DNA of 64,000 nucleotides, taken from positions 33,182-97,181 of the forward strand of contig CALXDC010000003.1 of the NCBI GenBank assembly GCA_944386975.1. Reading direction: 5' to 3'. Each line of letters begins with the position of its first letter. Within the stretch, counting starts at the first letter, position 1. This stretch comes from an uncultured Oscillospiraceae bacterium. Its GTDB lineage: Bacteria; Bacillota; Clostridia; Oscillospirales; Oscillospiraceae. A program made the position numbers and the translations under genes. Positions 1,907 through 38,560 of the stretch are shown here, piece by piece. Below the pieces are notes generated by a model, which had not been told where the DNA came from, did not search any database, and saw nothing but the letters and a program-made list of their open reading frames with translations.

Positions 1907-2625
1907 CTGACGGGGCTGTCTTTTTTGCCGGTAGCCGACGCACGTCGGCAGGTGCTATGCCTCCGGCGGCCTACTTTTCTCGTCAAAGAAAAGTAGGCAA
2001 AAGTTGACTTAGAACCAAGGTTCTAAGGACTCCTTTTCTCCTATTATGGGAAATCTGTCCCGTTTTTTCGGCGCTTGGTTCGGCTGACCCTGCAAGGGGG
2101 CCGGAGTTCTTCTCTTTCCGCGCGACCGCGCGCTCCTCTGGTGGTTGTAGGGGCTTCTGCCTCGTTAGCCTTCCCCTGGGGGAAGGTGGCGCGAAGCGCT
2201 GGATGAGGGGAACGTCATCGAATTGCGTTAAGCCAACTCGGAGGAAAATCCAAGGATTCCGCTTGGTGTAAAATAGCTTCCGAATCAATTGGGTGCACTT
2301 CGATACCCTTTCCCTCATCCGCCCCCTTCGGGGGCACCTTCCCCCAGGGGAAGGCTTAATTAAGTCCATCGTCGCCCCAGCGCATCAGCGCGGAGCGCGG
2401 CGCTTAAAGCAGAAGACGACCCAAATCGGCGTCACCCGGACAAAGCCTCCGATCAAAAGCCTCTCTGACAATCCGGTCTTGGTAATAAACGAAGGGAGTT
2501 CTTAGAACCGCAGGTTCTAAGTCAACTTTTGCCTACTTTTCTTTGACGAGAAAAGTAGGCCGCCGGAGGCTAAACACCAGACAGTACCCCGTCGGGTACC
2601 GGCAAAAACACCTTGCCCTCGTCAG
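1907..2625. repeat. Element A: 719-bp non-coding inverted-repeat element with nested hairpins
   Basis: Both ends carry CTGACG followed by a G run. Inward come a GCCGG..CCGACG block and GCCTCCGGCGG, then hairpin GCCTACTTTTC / GAAAAGTAGGC (1969-1979 with 1988-1998; right copy 2531-2541 with 2550-2560). Next is the palindrome TTAGAACC-AA-GGTTCTAA (2009-2026; right copy 2502-2520). Arms 1960-2036 and 2492-2571 are near-perfect inverted copies. Inside lies a second inverted pair (about 2168-2216 and 2306-2355) built on CCTTCCCCTGGGGGAAGG plus a small hairpin. No convincing gene is inside. It fills almost the whole csoR-copA gap. Element B at 36.7 kb shares the design. It could be a MITE-like element or a structured RNA locus. 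Confidence 0.85.
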
Positions 2626-15101: not shown

Positions 15102-15186
15102 GCGAGTGTGCTGGAACTGGTAGACAGGCACGTTTGAGGGGCGTGTGACAACCGTCGTACGGGTTCAAGTCCCGTCACTCGCACCA
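15102..15186 (+). tRNA. tRNA-Leu (GAG)
   Basis: Acceptor stem GCGAGTG / CACTCGC with encoded CCA. Anticodon stem CACGT/GCGTG encloses the loop TTGAGGG, giving anticodon GAG (reads CUU/CUC). The T-arm GGGTTCAAGTCCC and a long variable arm, as in class II leucine tRNAs, are present. Length 85 nt. Confidence 0.96.
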
Positions 15187-15217
15187 CCTTTTCTCTCTGA
15201 AAGTGAGCAGTCCATAC

Positions 15218-15305
15218 GCGCGAGTGGTGGAATTGGCAGACTCGCTAGATTCAGGTTCTAGTGTTCATTACGGACGTGCGGGTTCAAGTCCCGCCTCGCG
15301 CACCA
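15218..15305 (+). tRNA. tRNA-Leu (CAG)
   Basis: Acceptor stem GCGCGAG / CTCGCGC with encoded CCA. Anticodon arm CTAGA-TTCAGGT-TCTAG gives anticodon CAG (reads CUG). Long variable arm, T-arm GGGTTCAAGTCCC. Length 88 nt. Co-transcribed with the GAG isoacceptor 31 bp upstream. Confidence 0.96.
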
Positions 15306-35103: not shown

Positions 35104-35466
35104 ATGGTTGCCTGGCTCTACAAGTGGCTGCCCATCTTCTTTGGCTGCCACTGCATGGACAGCCGGTCCTTTCACTACCGGAATACCCGGTTTCCCATCT
35201 GTGCCCGCTGCACCGGCGAGCTGGTGGGGATTCTGGCGGCGGCGATGCTTTTTGCCTTCGTCCATCCGGGGGTTCTCTGGTCGGCGCTGCTGCTGGTCCC
35301 GCTGGTGATTGACGGCGGCGTCCAGGCGCTGACCCGGTATGAGAGCAACAACGGCAAGCGCCTTGTTACCGGCATTCTGTTCGGCTATGGCCTTGTCAAT
35401 CTGTTTCTTCTCACCACCGCCGCCACCTTTCGGTGGGGGGTGGAGATGGGAAACCGGCTCCACTGA
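35104..35466 (+). CDS. DUF2085-like small membrane protein
   Basis: A 120-residue membrane protein. The family pattern is clear: FGCHCMDSRSFHYRNTRFPICARCTGELVGI, with paired Cys/His before the first helix, then two or three more helices with a VIDGGVQ turn. It starts two bases after the zinc-ribbon protein stop, so the two are co-translated. DUF2085 has no known function; the Cys/His set suggests metal or redox binding at the membrane face. Confidence 0.85.
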   Translation: MVAWLYKWLPIFFGCHCMDSRSFHYRNTRFPICARCTGELVGILAAAMLFAFVHPGVLWSALLLVPLVIDGGVQALTRYESNNGKRLVTGILFGYGLVNLFLLTTAATFRWGVEMGNRLH

Positions 35467-35494
35467 GCCAGATTACCGCATCCGCACGGCAGGG

Positions 35495-35524
35495 AAGCGC
35501 CGCGGGAACTCTCCCGCGGCGCTT
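35495..35524 (+). terminator. Hairpin after the DUF2085-like gene
   Basis: Perfect 13-base stem AAGCGCCGCGGGA / TCCCGCGGCGCTT with an ACTC loop. The tail CCTCTCTTCC is only pyrimidine-rich, so termination may be partial. Confidence 0.65.
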
Positions 35525-35570
35525 CCTCTCTTCCCCGGCGGCCAGATTGCAAAAGGAGGAACTCCATAGG

Positions 35571-36593
35571 ATGGAAGCCTATTACCGTCAGCACATGGAC
35601 AAAAACCGGCAGAGCGTGTACCACGCCATGAAAGCCGGCTTCACCGCGCTGTCCCCCTCGTTTCCGGTGCTCCGGCTGGAGGATGCGGCTCTCAACGACG
35701 TGTTCTTTCAGCTGCGGCTGGACTGTCCGGAGATTTTCTACGTTTCCGGCTTTTCCTACCGCTTCTATCGGGACGCCGACCACGTGGAGCTGATTCCCCA
35801 ATATCTTTTTGACAAGGGAAAGATCCGGGACCATCAGCAGGCCATGTCCGCCCGGGTGACCAAGCTGTGCCGGGCTGTGCAGAGCAAGAGTGAAGCGGAA
35901 AAGGAGCAGTACATTCACGATTTTCTCTGCGAAAACGTGCGGTATGACAAGCTGAAAAAGCCCTACTCCCACGAGATCATCGGCCCGCTGGGACAGGGGG
36001 TGGGGGTGTGCGAGGGGATTGCCAAATCGGCCAAAATTCTCTGCGACAATCTGGGGATCTGGTGTGCCATTGCCATCTCCGACGCCGCACCGGATAAGGG
36101 CATCAAATATCGCCACGCCTGGAACGTGGTGAAGATCGGCGGGGCATACCGCCATCTGGATGTGACCTTTGATCTCAGTCTCAGCCGGGAGGGACTTGTC
36201 CGCCACGACTACTACAACCTCTCCGACCAGCAGATTCTCCGGGATCACCAGCCTCTGTTGTATCCCATGCCCGCCTGTCCCGCCGGGGACGGCAGCTTTT
36301 ACCGGCAGAAGAAGCTGTCCTTTACCAAGATGGAGGAAGTGGAAAACCGTACCCGGCAGGCGGTGCGGAAGAAGAAGCCCCTCCTCTTTCAGTGGCGGGG
36401 TGGTTATCTCACCCGGGAGATTCTGAAGGAACTGATGGATCTGATGGAGCGGACCGCCCAGGAGAAGGGCCGCCATGTCCGGGTATCCCTCAACTGGCCC
36501 CAGGCGGTGCTGCTGGCGGATTTTCCGGAGGAACTGCCGGCCCAGACGGTGGTCTCCGAGGAGGCCAACGAGGGCGAGCTGCTGGATGTCTGA
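35571..36593 (+). CDS. Transglutaminase-like (cysteine protease fold) protein
   Basis: A 340-residue cytoplasmic protein. The Cys-His-Asp triad is visible: GVGVCEGIAKS (Cys147), KYRHAWNVV (His182) and RHLDVTFD (Asp197), the TGc/COG5279 arrangement. YIHDFLCENVRYD (about 114-126) is the helix that normally precedes it. The C-terminal 100 residues are basic and of unknown fold. No signal peptide, unlike many transglutaminase-like proteins of cell walls. ATG ten bases after AAAGGAGG. Substrate unknown. Confidence 0.85.
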   Translation: MEAYYRQHMDKNRQSVYHAMKAGFTALSPSFPVLRLEDAALNDVFFQLRLDCPEIFYVSGFSYRFYRDADHVELIPQYLFDKGKIRDHQQAMSARVTKLCRAVQSKSEAEKEQYIHDFLCENVRYDKLKKPYSHEIIGPLGQGVGVCEGIAKSAKILCDNLGIWCAIAISDAAPDKGIKYRHAWNVVKIGGAYRHLDVTFDLSLSREGLVRHDYYNLSDQQILRDHQPLLYPMPACPAGDGSFYRQKKLSFTKMEEVENRTRQAVRKKKPLLFQWRGGYLTREILKELMDLMERTAQEKGRHVRVSLNWPQAVLLADFPEELPAQTVVSEEANEGELLDV

Positions 36594-36606
36594 TTCTTTT
36601 ATTTTT

Positions 36607-36650
36607 CCCCTGCGGGATGCTGCGATCCTGCGGGGGATTTCTTATTTTTT
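36607..36650 (+). terminator. Terminator of the transglutaminase-like gene
   Basis: CCCC-T-GCGGGAT pairs with ATCCTGC-GGGG (one bulge, one G-U), then ATTTCTTATTTTTT. The last T of the run touches the conserved end of element B. Confidence 0.75.
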
Positions 36651-37252
36651 GATATTCTGACGTGGGGGTGTCTGTTCTCTTTTGGCCGACGGTGTACTGC
36701 TTGGTGTTAAGCCTCCGGCGGCCTACTTTTGTCGCTGAACAAAAGTAGGCAAAAATCAGCTTAGAACCAATGGTTCTAAGAACTCCTTTTCCTGACGTGG
36801 AACGAAAATCCCCCCTGGCTATCGTTACTCCTGTTGCCTCCGACGCTCCGTGGACGTGTCCGGTACAGTCTAATACCGCGCTTCGGCGCGCTCATCTGGT
36901 GGGTAGACGATGGTCCCTTCGTCTACCGTTTCTTCCCTATCTGAGCTGCTGCGGCGTTGGCAAGTCTGTCAGTTGAGGCTATTGCAGAAACCTCTGCAAG
37001 TACCAGGGCAGCGCGCCGAAGCGCGGAAACAGGGGAACCCGGTCACCCCGCTGCTGCGTCAGAGGTACCAAGCCCCCAATAGTACATCAGGACAACCAGT
37101 ACAAGGAAACAAAGGAGTTCTTAGAACCATTGGTTCTAAGTCAACTTTTGCCTACTTTTCTTTGATGAGAAAAGTAGGCCGCCGGAGGCTTAACACCAAG
37201 CAGTACACCGTCGGGTATCGATCAAAAGCAGCTCATCCCACGTCAGAACATC
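36651..37252. repeat. Element B: about 600-bp inverted-repeat element, relative of element A
   Basis: Ends are GATATTCTGACGTGGG (36651-36666) and the inverted GATGTTCTGACGTGGG (37237-37252). Next come CCGACGGTGTACTGCTTGGT and GCCTCCGGCGG on both sides, then hairpins GCCTACTTTTG/CAAAAGTAGGC (left, 36720-36750) and GCCTACTTTTC/GAAAAGTAGGC (right). The palindrome TTAGAACCAATGGTTCTAA follows (36761-36779; right copy 37121-37139). About 100 bp further in is CCGCGCTTCGGCGCGCT (36876-36892) with a perfect inverted copy at 37010-37026. No gene is inside. Outer parts match element A; the centre does not. Confidence 0.87.
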
Positions 37253-37300
37253 AAAAAACCAGGGCCCGGTAAGGAAACCGCCATTTCCCTACCGGACCCT
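37253..37300 (-). terminator. Terminator of the LytTR-system kinase gene
   Basis: A 17-base stem (arms 37261-37277 and 37284-37300, two G-U pairs) that begins inside the kinase stop codon region, followed on the minus strand by GGTTTTTT. The T-run is directly followed by the end of element B. Confidence 0.85.
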
Positions 37301-38560
37301 GATTCGTTTTTCATGGAGCGGCAGACACAGGATGCAGGAGAACTGTCCCTGAGAGGGGACGAACTCCACCGTGCCGCCCCGGCGGCGGACGATATCCCGT
37401 ACCGTCTCCGTACCGAGGCCGTGACCCGGTTCTCCCTTGGAGGAGAGGAATTTTCCCTCCCGCTCCTCCGGAGCCGCCGCCGCGGCATTGACGCACCGCA
37501 GCGCCAGAAGCCCCCGGTCCGCCCGAACCGTGAGGCGCACCCACCGGCTGCCGGGAGGCAGCTTCCGGCAGGCCTCCAGGGCGTTGTCCAGGAGATTTCC
37601 CAGGAGCGCTCCCAGCTCCGGCCCCGGCAGGGGCAGCTCCTCCGGCAGCGCCGTGTCGGCGCTGAAGTCCACCTCCTCCGCCGCCAGCACCGCCGCTTTG
37701 GCGCACAACACCGTATTGGCCACCCGGTTCTCACAGAACTGCCGCCCCTTCAAAAGCCCGGGGGACTGCTGGAGACTGTGGAGATAGGCGGCGGCGTCCC
37801 CAGCCCGGTCCGCCTCCAGGAGCCCGTCTAAAACAGTGAAGTGGTTCGCCATATCATGGCGCAGCCGCCGCACCTGTTGCTGCTGCTCCTCCAATTGTTT
37901 GTAGTAGGTCCGGCTCATGGCGAGAAGGCTGGCCTCCTGCTCCAGTCGCTCCTGGTCCGCCAGCACCGCGGCGGTGTAGAGAATGGACAGGGCGGAGAGG
38001 AGGAGAAAGGGCAGCAGCACATAGGCCAGCAGAGGATTTTCGATATAGTAAGGGGAGAGAGACACCGCCGCCACGATCCCCGCCAGGGGCAGCAGGGCCA
38101 GAAGCCCCACCAGCCGGGCCATCCGGGTGGAAAGGGGATACTGTTCCCGGGGCAGCAGGCGGCGGACCGCCAGCCAGATCAGTACCCATGCCGCCATCCG
38201 GCAGAAATCCGGAATGGTCCCCCAGTAGTCCAGCCGCCGGGGGAAGGCGTCCATCACGGCGGAGAGAGTGGAGGCCAGGGAGTAGAACACCATGGAGAAG
38301 GCCAGCCGCTCTGTAGGGCTGCCCCGATAGGAGAAAAAGAGGGCGGCGAACACCGGCGGCAGGGCAAAGCAGATGTTCACCGGGTCCCCGATGTAGATGA
38401 CATTGCCGATGGCCACCATCATGGCAAAGTACCGCAGAATTCGCCACCCCCAGCCGGGCCGGGGGGTGAGGAACTTGCGCAGCACCTGCCCGGCGGCCAG
38501 GGCGGAGAGCACCGTATACACCAGGAGGAGGCTCCTCCACACAATGTCCGGCAGACTCAT
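37289..38560 (-). CDS. GHKL sensor histidine kinase (AgrC/NatK-like)
   Basis: A 423-residue kinase with six to seven N-terminal helices (about 5-205), a coiled-coil linker with the phospho-acceptor in RRLRHDMANHFTVLDGLL, and a GHKL ATPase domain with LGNLLDNALEACRKL and GHGLGTETVRDIV. The G1 box is reduced. It is coupled by a four-base overlap to the LytTR regulator upstream. This arrangement next to a BceAB-like transporter suggests sensing of a peptide or envelope stress. Confidence 0.92.
   Translation of the reverse strand: MSLPDIVWRSLLLVYTVLSALAAGQVLRKFLTPRPGWGWRILRYFAMMVAIGNVIYIGDPVNICFALPPVFAALFFSYRGSPTERLAFSMVFYSLASTLSAVMDAFPRRLDYWGTIPDFCRMAAWVLIWLAVRRLLPREQYPLSTRMARLVGLLALLPLAGIVAAVSLSPYYIENPLLAYVLLPFLLLSALSILYTAAVLADQERLEQEASLLAMSRTYYKQLEEQQQQVRRLRHDMANHFTVLDGLLEADRAGDAAAYLHSLQQSPGLLKGRQFCENRVANTVLCAKAAVLAAEEVDFSADTALPEELPLPGPELGALLGNLLDNALEACRKLPPGSRWVRLTVRADRGLLALRCVNAAAAAPEEREGKFLSSKGEPGHGLGTETVRDIVRRRGGTVEFVPSQGQFSCILCLPLHEKRIRVR

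Follow-up and report, generated by a model that had tools for sequence, protein, structure and literature searches.

Elements A and B, which lie in the 64,000-nucleotide stretch of Oscillospiraceae DNA analysed here (the window), belong to a family of interspersed repeats with paired, inward-facing arms, and selection on the folded single strand of these arms is well supported. The reading that we prefer, tentatively and with less than even confidence, is that A and B represent an old family of large bipartite interspersed repeats working like REP dimers (BIME/REPIN); the elements of Oscillospiraceae and some related families suggest that the small REP repeats have a relative not yet described. 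The source assembly is a draft of 2.66 Mb in 96 contigs and is 90% complete; the nearest database matches of a neighbouring protein come from uncultured Oscillospiraceae.

Element B has outer inverted ends of 22 bp (36645-36666 and 37237-37258), which are 95% complementary, and two inward-facing arms of 104 nt each, which are 90% mutually complementary and separated by 321 nt. The plan of element A, also with two inward-facing arms, is that of B. The features, in window positions, are as follows.

36645..37258, no strand: element B, whole, bounded by outer inverted ends TTTTTTGATATTCTGACGTGGG / CCCACGTCAGAACATCAAAAAA
36686..36789, + strand: B left arm, read inward
36711..36719, + strand: B left H4, small hairpin GCC-TCC-GGC within the end motif, below significance against the tree-based null
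36721..36750, + strand: B left H5 hairpin, top pair G-C (36731/36740)
36734..36738, + strand: B left pseudoknot strand 1, GCTGA, within the H5 loop
36756..36760, + strand: B left pseudoknot strand 2, TCAGC
36760..36780, + strand: B left H6, the TTAGAACC palindrome
36781..37119, no strand: B centre, a piece of a genome-wide mosaic family
37111..37214, - strand: B right arm, read inward on the - strand
37120..37140, - strand: B right H6, the TTAGAACC palindrome
37140..37144, - strand: second strand of the B right pseudoknot, reading TTGAC on that DNA strand
37150..37179, - strand: B right H5 hairpin, top pair C-G
37162..37166, - strand: first strand of the B right pseudoknot, reading ATCAA on that DNA strand
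36606..36637, + strand: terminator-like hairpin and T tail, next to B and directed into it; by eye kept at the G006 locus without B
37257..37304, - strand: terminator-like hairpin and T tail, next to B and directed into it; by eye kept at the G006 locus as well
1943..2039, + strand: element A left arm
2489..2595, - strand: element A right arm

The strands of the left H5 of B, GCCTACTTTTG..CAAAAGTAGGC, occupy 36721-36731 and 36740-36750, and the right pseudoknot of B has four Watson-Crick pairs and, read inward, an A-C end pair. B is flanked by convergent genes (35433-36593 on the + strand and 37289-38560 on the - strand), with a terminator-like hairpin after each. Nested in the centre of A, at window positions 2150-2200 and 2310-2360, is a second inverted repeat, CCTTCCCCTGGGGGAAGG ... 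CCTTCCCCCAGGGGAAGG, which seems to represent a different type of repeat. Elsewhere in the window, at 15102-15305, there is a tandem pair of tRNA-Leu genes with anticodons GAG and CAG.

An earlier note on this DNA had stated that A and B share an end motif, a hairpin and a palindrome, and all three are indeed common to them. The end motif GCCTCCGGCGG occurs exactly six times in the window, four of these at arms of A and B; with at most one mismatch there are 20 matches, against 6.0 expected. The palindrome TTAGAACC has eight matches over both strands, all of them in A and B (0.65 expected), and the exact hairpin pattern is found at 56 places in the source genome, whereas the reversed control pattern gave none. 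The top pair of the left hairpin of B is G-C as described, with C..G at that position in the right arm of B and in both arms of A. The change is an allele present in many copies; because of this, and because template switching could make such a change, one double change in one copy is weak proof of selection on the fold.

Read from outside to inside, the arm consists of variable outer hairpins (one of them around CTGACG), H4 (GCC-TCC-GGC), H5 (the long hairpin that contains the pair singled out earlier), a linker of AAAA, a strand whose letters complement those of the H5 loop, and finally the TTAGAACC palindrome (H6). Pairing of the H5 loop with the strand that precedes the palindrome makes an H-type pseudoknot, which was absent from the earlier note. 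Loop and downstream strand occur in matching classes, namely GTCAA/TTGAC, GCTGA/TCAGC, GCGGA/TCCGC, GCCAA/TTGGC and CGAG/CTCG. In nine of the 84 halves in the source genome, a segment ATCTCCGCGC.. replaces the downstream strand of the pseudoknot. In these nine of 84 halves, which belong to L044, L047, L052, L053, L057, L061, L064, L069 and L074, a segment ATCTCCGCGCTAAGAGCC.. takes the position of linker and pseudoknot strand together; it was also seen at G006 loci, and the palindrome side returns further inward. The outermost hairpins of many arms are of recurring types (GTCCC..GGGAC and GCCC..GGGC), which may constitute an additional module. Compared with shuffled sequence, the fold of three arms of A and B is much stronger (z -4.7 to -5.9), as is that of the other strand of one of them (z -4.3), and the outer segment of B at 36651-36720 folds no better than shuffled sequence (z -0.2).

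For the covariation analysis, hairpins were collected at all loci by the presence of CTTTT/AAAAG and pairing at no fewer than nine of ten outer-stem positions; since a paired stem was thus the criterion for an arm, the pairing of the ten outer H5 pairs is partly a product of selection by us. The top pair (columns 32-41), the pseudoknot, H4 and H6 played no part in the criteria. Among the inward arms, 172 had an A-rich linker; a diverse set of 60 was retained, and 52 of these together with the four window arms make up the alignment A1 (56 arms). The arms left out are four that lack the H6 palindrome (two from L173, and those of L134 and L136), L087 and L101, which have an enlarged H6, L090, which is diverged, and L011, which duplicates a window arm. 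In A1, 95.5% of the 1568 pair cells are paired (81.4% in shuffles and 31-54% in slid versions), and 222 cells are changed on both sides, against 60 in shuffles. The pseudoknot taken alone is paired in 91.8% of its cells (65.9% when shuffled, at most 43% when slid) and has 91 double-changed cells against 26, with its outermost pair, 35-61, unpaired in 19 of the 56 arms.

Because shuffles ignore relatedness, we also used a tree-based null, in which the parsimony changes of each column were re-placed on a FastTree tree in 60 null alignments (our own script, not R-scape). Eleven column pairs reached E <=0.05: seven are pairs of the fold, and each of the remaining four connects neighbouring columns within the H5 stem. 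The seven, which are the strongest covarying pairs, comprise 23-50, 24-49, 25-48 and 32-41 in H5, and 37-59, 38-58 and 39-57 in the pseudoknot; H4, H6 and the pseudoknot pairs 36-60 and 35-61 stayed below significance in this test. The proposal that the fold itself is selected, together with the covariation check on the stems suggested alongside it, is thereby upheld in our home-made version, with the noted pair 32-41 among the seven, and this pair is not freely broken: it is intact in 56 of 56 aligned arms (C-G in 26, G-C in 24, U-A in 6). The crossing helix indicates that a folded single strand, and not a mere palindrome, is under selection.

G-U pairs are absent from the pseudoknot in all 56 arms and were found once in 616 H5 cells. 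In the strand comparison of G-U with A-C cells, most of the A-C cells are in columns that are also able to pair in H4 or H6. The absence of G-U and the presence of the pseudoknot would fit a need for folding on either strand, or folding as single-stranded DNA. The nearly complete Watson-Crick pairing of H5 could be expected if the compensating changes had arisen by template switching of replication within hairpins, a mechanism documented in PMC8794818, and not by selection on the fold. However, the covariation of the pseudoknot helix, which crosses the hairpin, is of the same strength and extends across genera; this is not readily explained by template switching in hairpins, and we regard that origin as highly improbable.

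The source genome contains 39 complete inverted pairs of 488-848 bp and six single arms, as judged from 45 fetched sites (40 stretches around blastn or pattern matches, plus the window). A blastn search of the genome with one arm matched at least 40 places, which are the best 40 of 101 candidates. One solo hairpin, at about 1481-1545 of L041, seemingly consists of a left-arm H5 fused to a right-arm H5 and end motif, and looks like a deletion derivative of an element. In the drafts compared here, several contigs end inside or near an element (L056, L075, L078, L081, L095, L126 and others), so that counts of intact copies may be biased; the elements seem to interrupt draft assemblies of these bacteria. 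All 39 centres in the source genome match other centres of the same genome at E 2.4e-37 or better, in either orientation. The statement of the earlier note that the centres of A and B are unrelated except for a short GCGC module has to be corrected accordingly: the two have in common, in inverted orientation, a 97-bp stretch of 73% identity (E 1e-11).

Twenty-one elements of the source genome share their flanks with elements of the related genomes G006 or G004, giving 25 locus pairs (22 of them shared on both sides) with 79-94% identity; as all compared loci were fetched for carrying an element, these pairs demonstrate that loci are shared and not how often. The interiors at the 25 pairs are no more alike than random ones (median rank 21 and mean 22 among 42), with three of the five G004 pairs ranking 2 to 6. 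The best paralogue within a genome beats the best match between genomes for 37 of 39 source-genome elements and 30 of 33 G006 elements, a comparison that slightly favours the within-genome side because just 33 fetched G006 elements entered it. These comparisons show concerted evolution of the interiors within each genome. At 10 shared loci where arms were aligned, the class has been kept in some arms and changed in others, as gradual gene conversion would give. The identity profile of the outer flanks has a weak excess outside the arm, blurred by indels, and a translated comparison of flanks against the G001-G010 loci gave noise among the matches listed.

At the B locus, G006 has 38 bp where the source genome has 578, and both neighbouring genes are kept. 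By eye, these 38 bp are what a deletion has left of the element ends and of the GCCTCCGGCGG motif, and the site does not resemble a clean empty one. The neighbours of B are elsewhere in G004 and G008, and no arm was seen in the stretches examined. We saw no sign of transposition or of a target-site duplication; the outer ends of B are inverted and not direct, and the G006 site is a remnant.

MITEs have terminal inverted repeats and are hundreds of base pairs long. The present elements resemble them in both respects and in that B has no evident gene; they differ in that their ends conserve the fold more than the sequence and in that loci are shared between species. We know of no parental transposon for them, and as MITEs they are candidates at most. 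That A and B are non-autonomous, MITE-like mobile elements, with folded ends cut by a still active single-strand transposase and with fold-competent copies moving, would suit the high copy number, the inverted ends in many genera, the presence or absence of B between species, the tandem duplicated arms in the genome G157 and the inward-pointing terminators described below. Against this, the 25 locus pairs keep the element in place, the one site lacking B is a remnant by eye, the longest ORF mostly inside B has just 120 aa, one arm pattern had no match in viral contigs and blastn of B had none in phage and plasmid records. Nor is Y1_Tnp (RAYT) required: it is present in 13 of the 36 genomes searched, and none was found in the source draft (90% complete) or in seven of ten same-genus relatives. 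We therefore judge mobility of this kind unlikely, though still a serious competitor.

To place the elements among genes, neighbouring genes were called by codon scoring; a naive context based on ORFs had been spoiled by antisense ORFs and was discarded. Where both genes were callable, divergent neighbours flank two of 31 source-genome elements (out of 39) and three of 36 others (out of 42); the window itself has 48 adjacent gene pairs, seven divergent and seven convergent. Avoidance of divergent pairs is not significant (5/67 elements against 7/48 window pairs, P 0.23). Convergent neighbours were found for 11 of 31 elements in the source genome (P 0.05 against the 7/48 window pairs), for 7 of 36 in other genomes (P 0.57), and give P 0.17 over all 67. 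As a location preference failed against the gene order of the window, our confidence in the preferred reading is lowered.

Terminator-like hairpins pointing inward were found in the outer region of 41 of the 140 arms that had enough flank (of 162), and pointing outward in six of 140; shuffled sequence has 0.03 per arm. The inward ones are equally frequent where the arm faces the 5' side of a gene (16/51) and where it faces a 3' end (20/76), so that at many loci they seem to be part of the element. It might be supposed that the elements are maintained by the host as RNA, namely as bidirectional gene-end modules that end transcription and whose pseudoknot shields 3' ends. The stable loci, the inward terminators, the strong single-strand fold (z -4.3 to -5.9) and the convergent neighbours in the source genome favour such a module, but the excess of convergent neighbours is not repeated in the other genomes. 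Moreover, since the terminators lie outside the pseudoknot and are equally frequent on 5'-side arms, little RNA should reach the pseudoknot from outside; the pseudoknot has no G-U pairs, and B was lost in G006 with both neighbouring genes kept. A host RNA module is thus distinctly unlikely. The least probable of the explanations weighed here, one that we would hardly expect to hold, is a gene family for a trans-acting structured RNA of about 0.5-0.85 kb, with all elements as copies of one ncRNA. The fold does recur across the order sample, and the centres do form a mosaic family. However, a search with Rfam at gathering score found only two tRNAs in the whole window and nothing at A or B; near B there was a single match, at chance level; a sigma-70 scan found no promoter-like site in 36550-37330; and the element is symmetric, without a defined strand, and exists in 39 paired copies in the source genome.

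A covariance model of the arm (R1), from which the pseudoknot was left out, has matches at E 0.01 in 98 of 250 family genomes (57 of 106 genera), at 0.001 in 40 of 245 genomes of an order sample (11 of the 40 in the same family) and at 0.0001 in eight of 291 of a class sample, six of the eight outside the order. With a single arm as blastn query, matches came from 13 of 60 genomes, namely the 11 of the same genus and two others. Arm pairs facing inward were also seen in further genera and in a second family of the order. The arms of G157, a genome of another genus, are duplicated in tandem, and at about 700-1540 of L215, in the same genome, a longer tandem unit joins an arm to another dispersed repeat, GTCATTCCGAGACC..GTGGGAATCC. 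From 134 model matches in 65 loci we took the 50 stronger ones outside the source genus and could parse 46. A first parse over-extended the stem and was dropped (at least 4 bp of pseudoknot in 12 of 50 arms; shuffled mean 2.8, maximum 8); the parse finally used has a fixed 10-bp stem. With genus g60 set apart, at least 4 bp of the pseudoknot can form in 23 of 28 distant arms from 17 genera, with new letters (shuffled mean 6.7, maximum 16 in 3000). In g60, whose loops are mostly longer, a 4-bp loop match was found in just one of 18 arms, and no pseudoknot is claimed there.

If A and B do work like REP dimers, the arms would fold as single strands, either of DNA in replication or repair or of RNA, and a protein would recognise the folded arms. 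Recognition or processing of the arms in pairs, as folded single strands, is suggested by the layout and by a heterotypic pairing like that of REP dimers. The shared loci speak against brisk mobility and the concerted evolution for exchange between copies, and the copies may now be renewed mainly through recombination with one another. The terminators would keep passing RNA polymerase out of the element, and a benefit to the host, if any, might be a boundary at gene ends. The lack of the H6 palindrome in four of the 60 diverse arms counts against this scheme, and no arm-recognising protein was found, Y1_Tnp being the sole candidate searched for. It is possible, though rather doubtful, that the elements form an undescribed class of bipartite nucleic-acid elements in many families of one order, with paired pseudoknotted ends, dedicated machinery other than Y1, fixed loci, and contents exchanged between copies.

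In the Pistol ribozyme and other H-type pseudoknot RNAs, a hairpin loop pairs with the linker to the following hairpin. The arm is likened to Pistol on topology alone, and differs in that H6 is a plain palindrome and in that there is no evidence of cleavage. Among the top-ranked open-licence papers we found no description of these elements; the main text of PMC3733652 contains neither 'Firmicutes' nor 'Clostridi', and that of PMC12306157, a 2025 survey of REPs, neither 'Oscillospir' nor 'pseudoknot'.

Both arms are of the same loop class in eight of 79 elements, against 17.9 expected (P about 0.003; two of 81 were unparsed), namely in 5/39 in the source genome (P 0.03), 3/31 in G006 (P 0.07) and 0/9 in G004 (P 0.19); the strength of this heterotypic pairing is uncertain because orthologous elements are non-independent and identical arms may break draft assemblies. 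Many REP families likewise prefer heterodimers, for which escape from SbcCD cleavage of long hairpins has been suggested (PMC3733652). REP dimers, BIMEs and REPINs of the GTAG and CGTC superfamilies, as described in the same paper, resemble the present elements in being many-copy, intergenic, arranged as inverted pairs and often heterotypic. The differences are of size and content: the arm here measures at least about 105 nt and combines two to three hairpins with a pseudoknot, whereas a REP is one palindrome of 20-40 bp; the centre is about 300-650 bp in the source genome, whereas that of REP dimers is mostly 20-100; and inward terminators belong to these elements and not to REP dimers. The unpaired GTAG tag of REPs is absent at the foot of H5, which in A1 is flanked by H4 and AAA; a GTAG lies inside the stem and varies, and the CTGACG motif further out could correspond to the CGTC tag. 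Given the absence of an unpaired GTAG tag, and of Y1_Tnp in the source draft and in most same-genus drafts as noted above, the elements are not to be filed as REP or REPIN. In short, our analysis presents them as REP-like in their apparent working plan, though not as REPs or REPINs. With them, REP-like repeats would reach into a large group of gut bacteria, and how REP-like dimers persist can be tested on their heterotypic arms and on their concerted evolution at shared loci.
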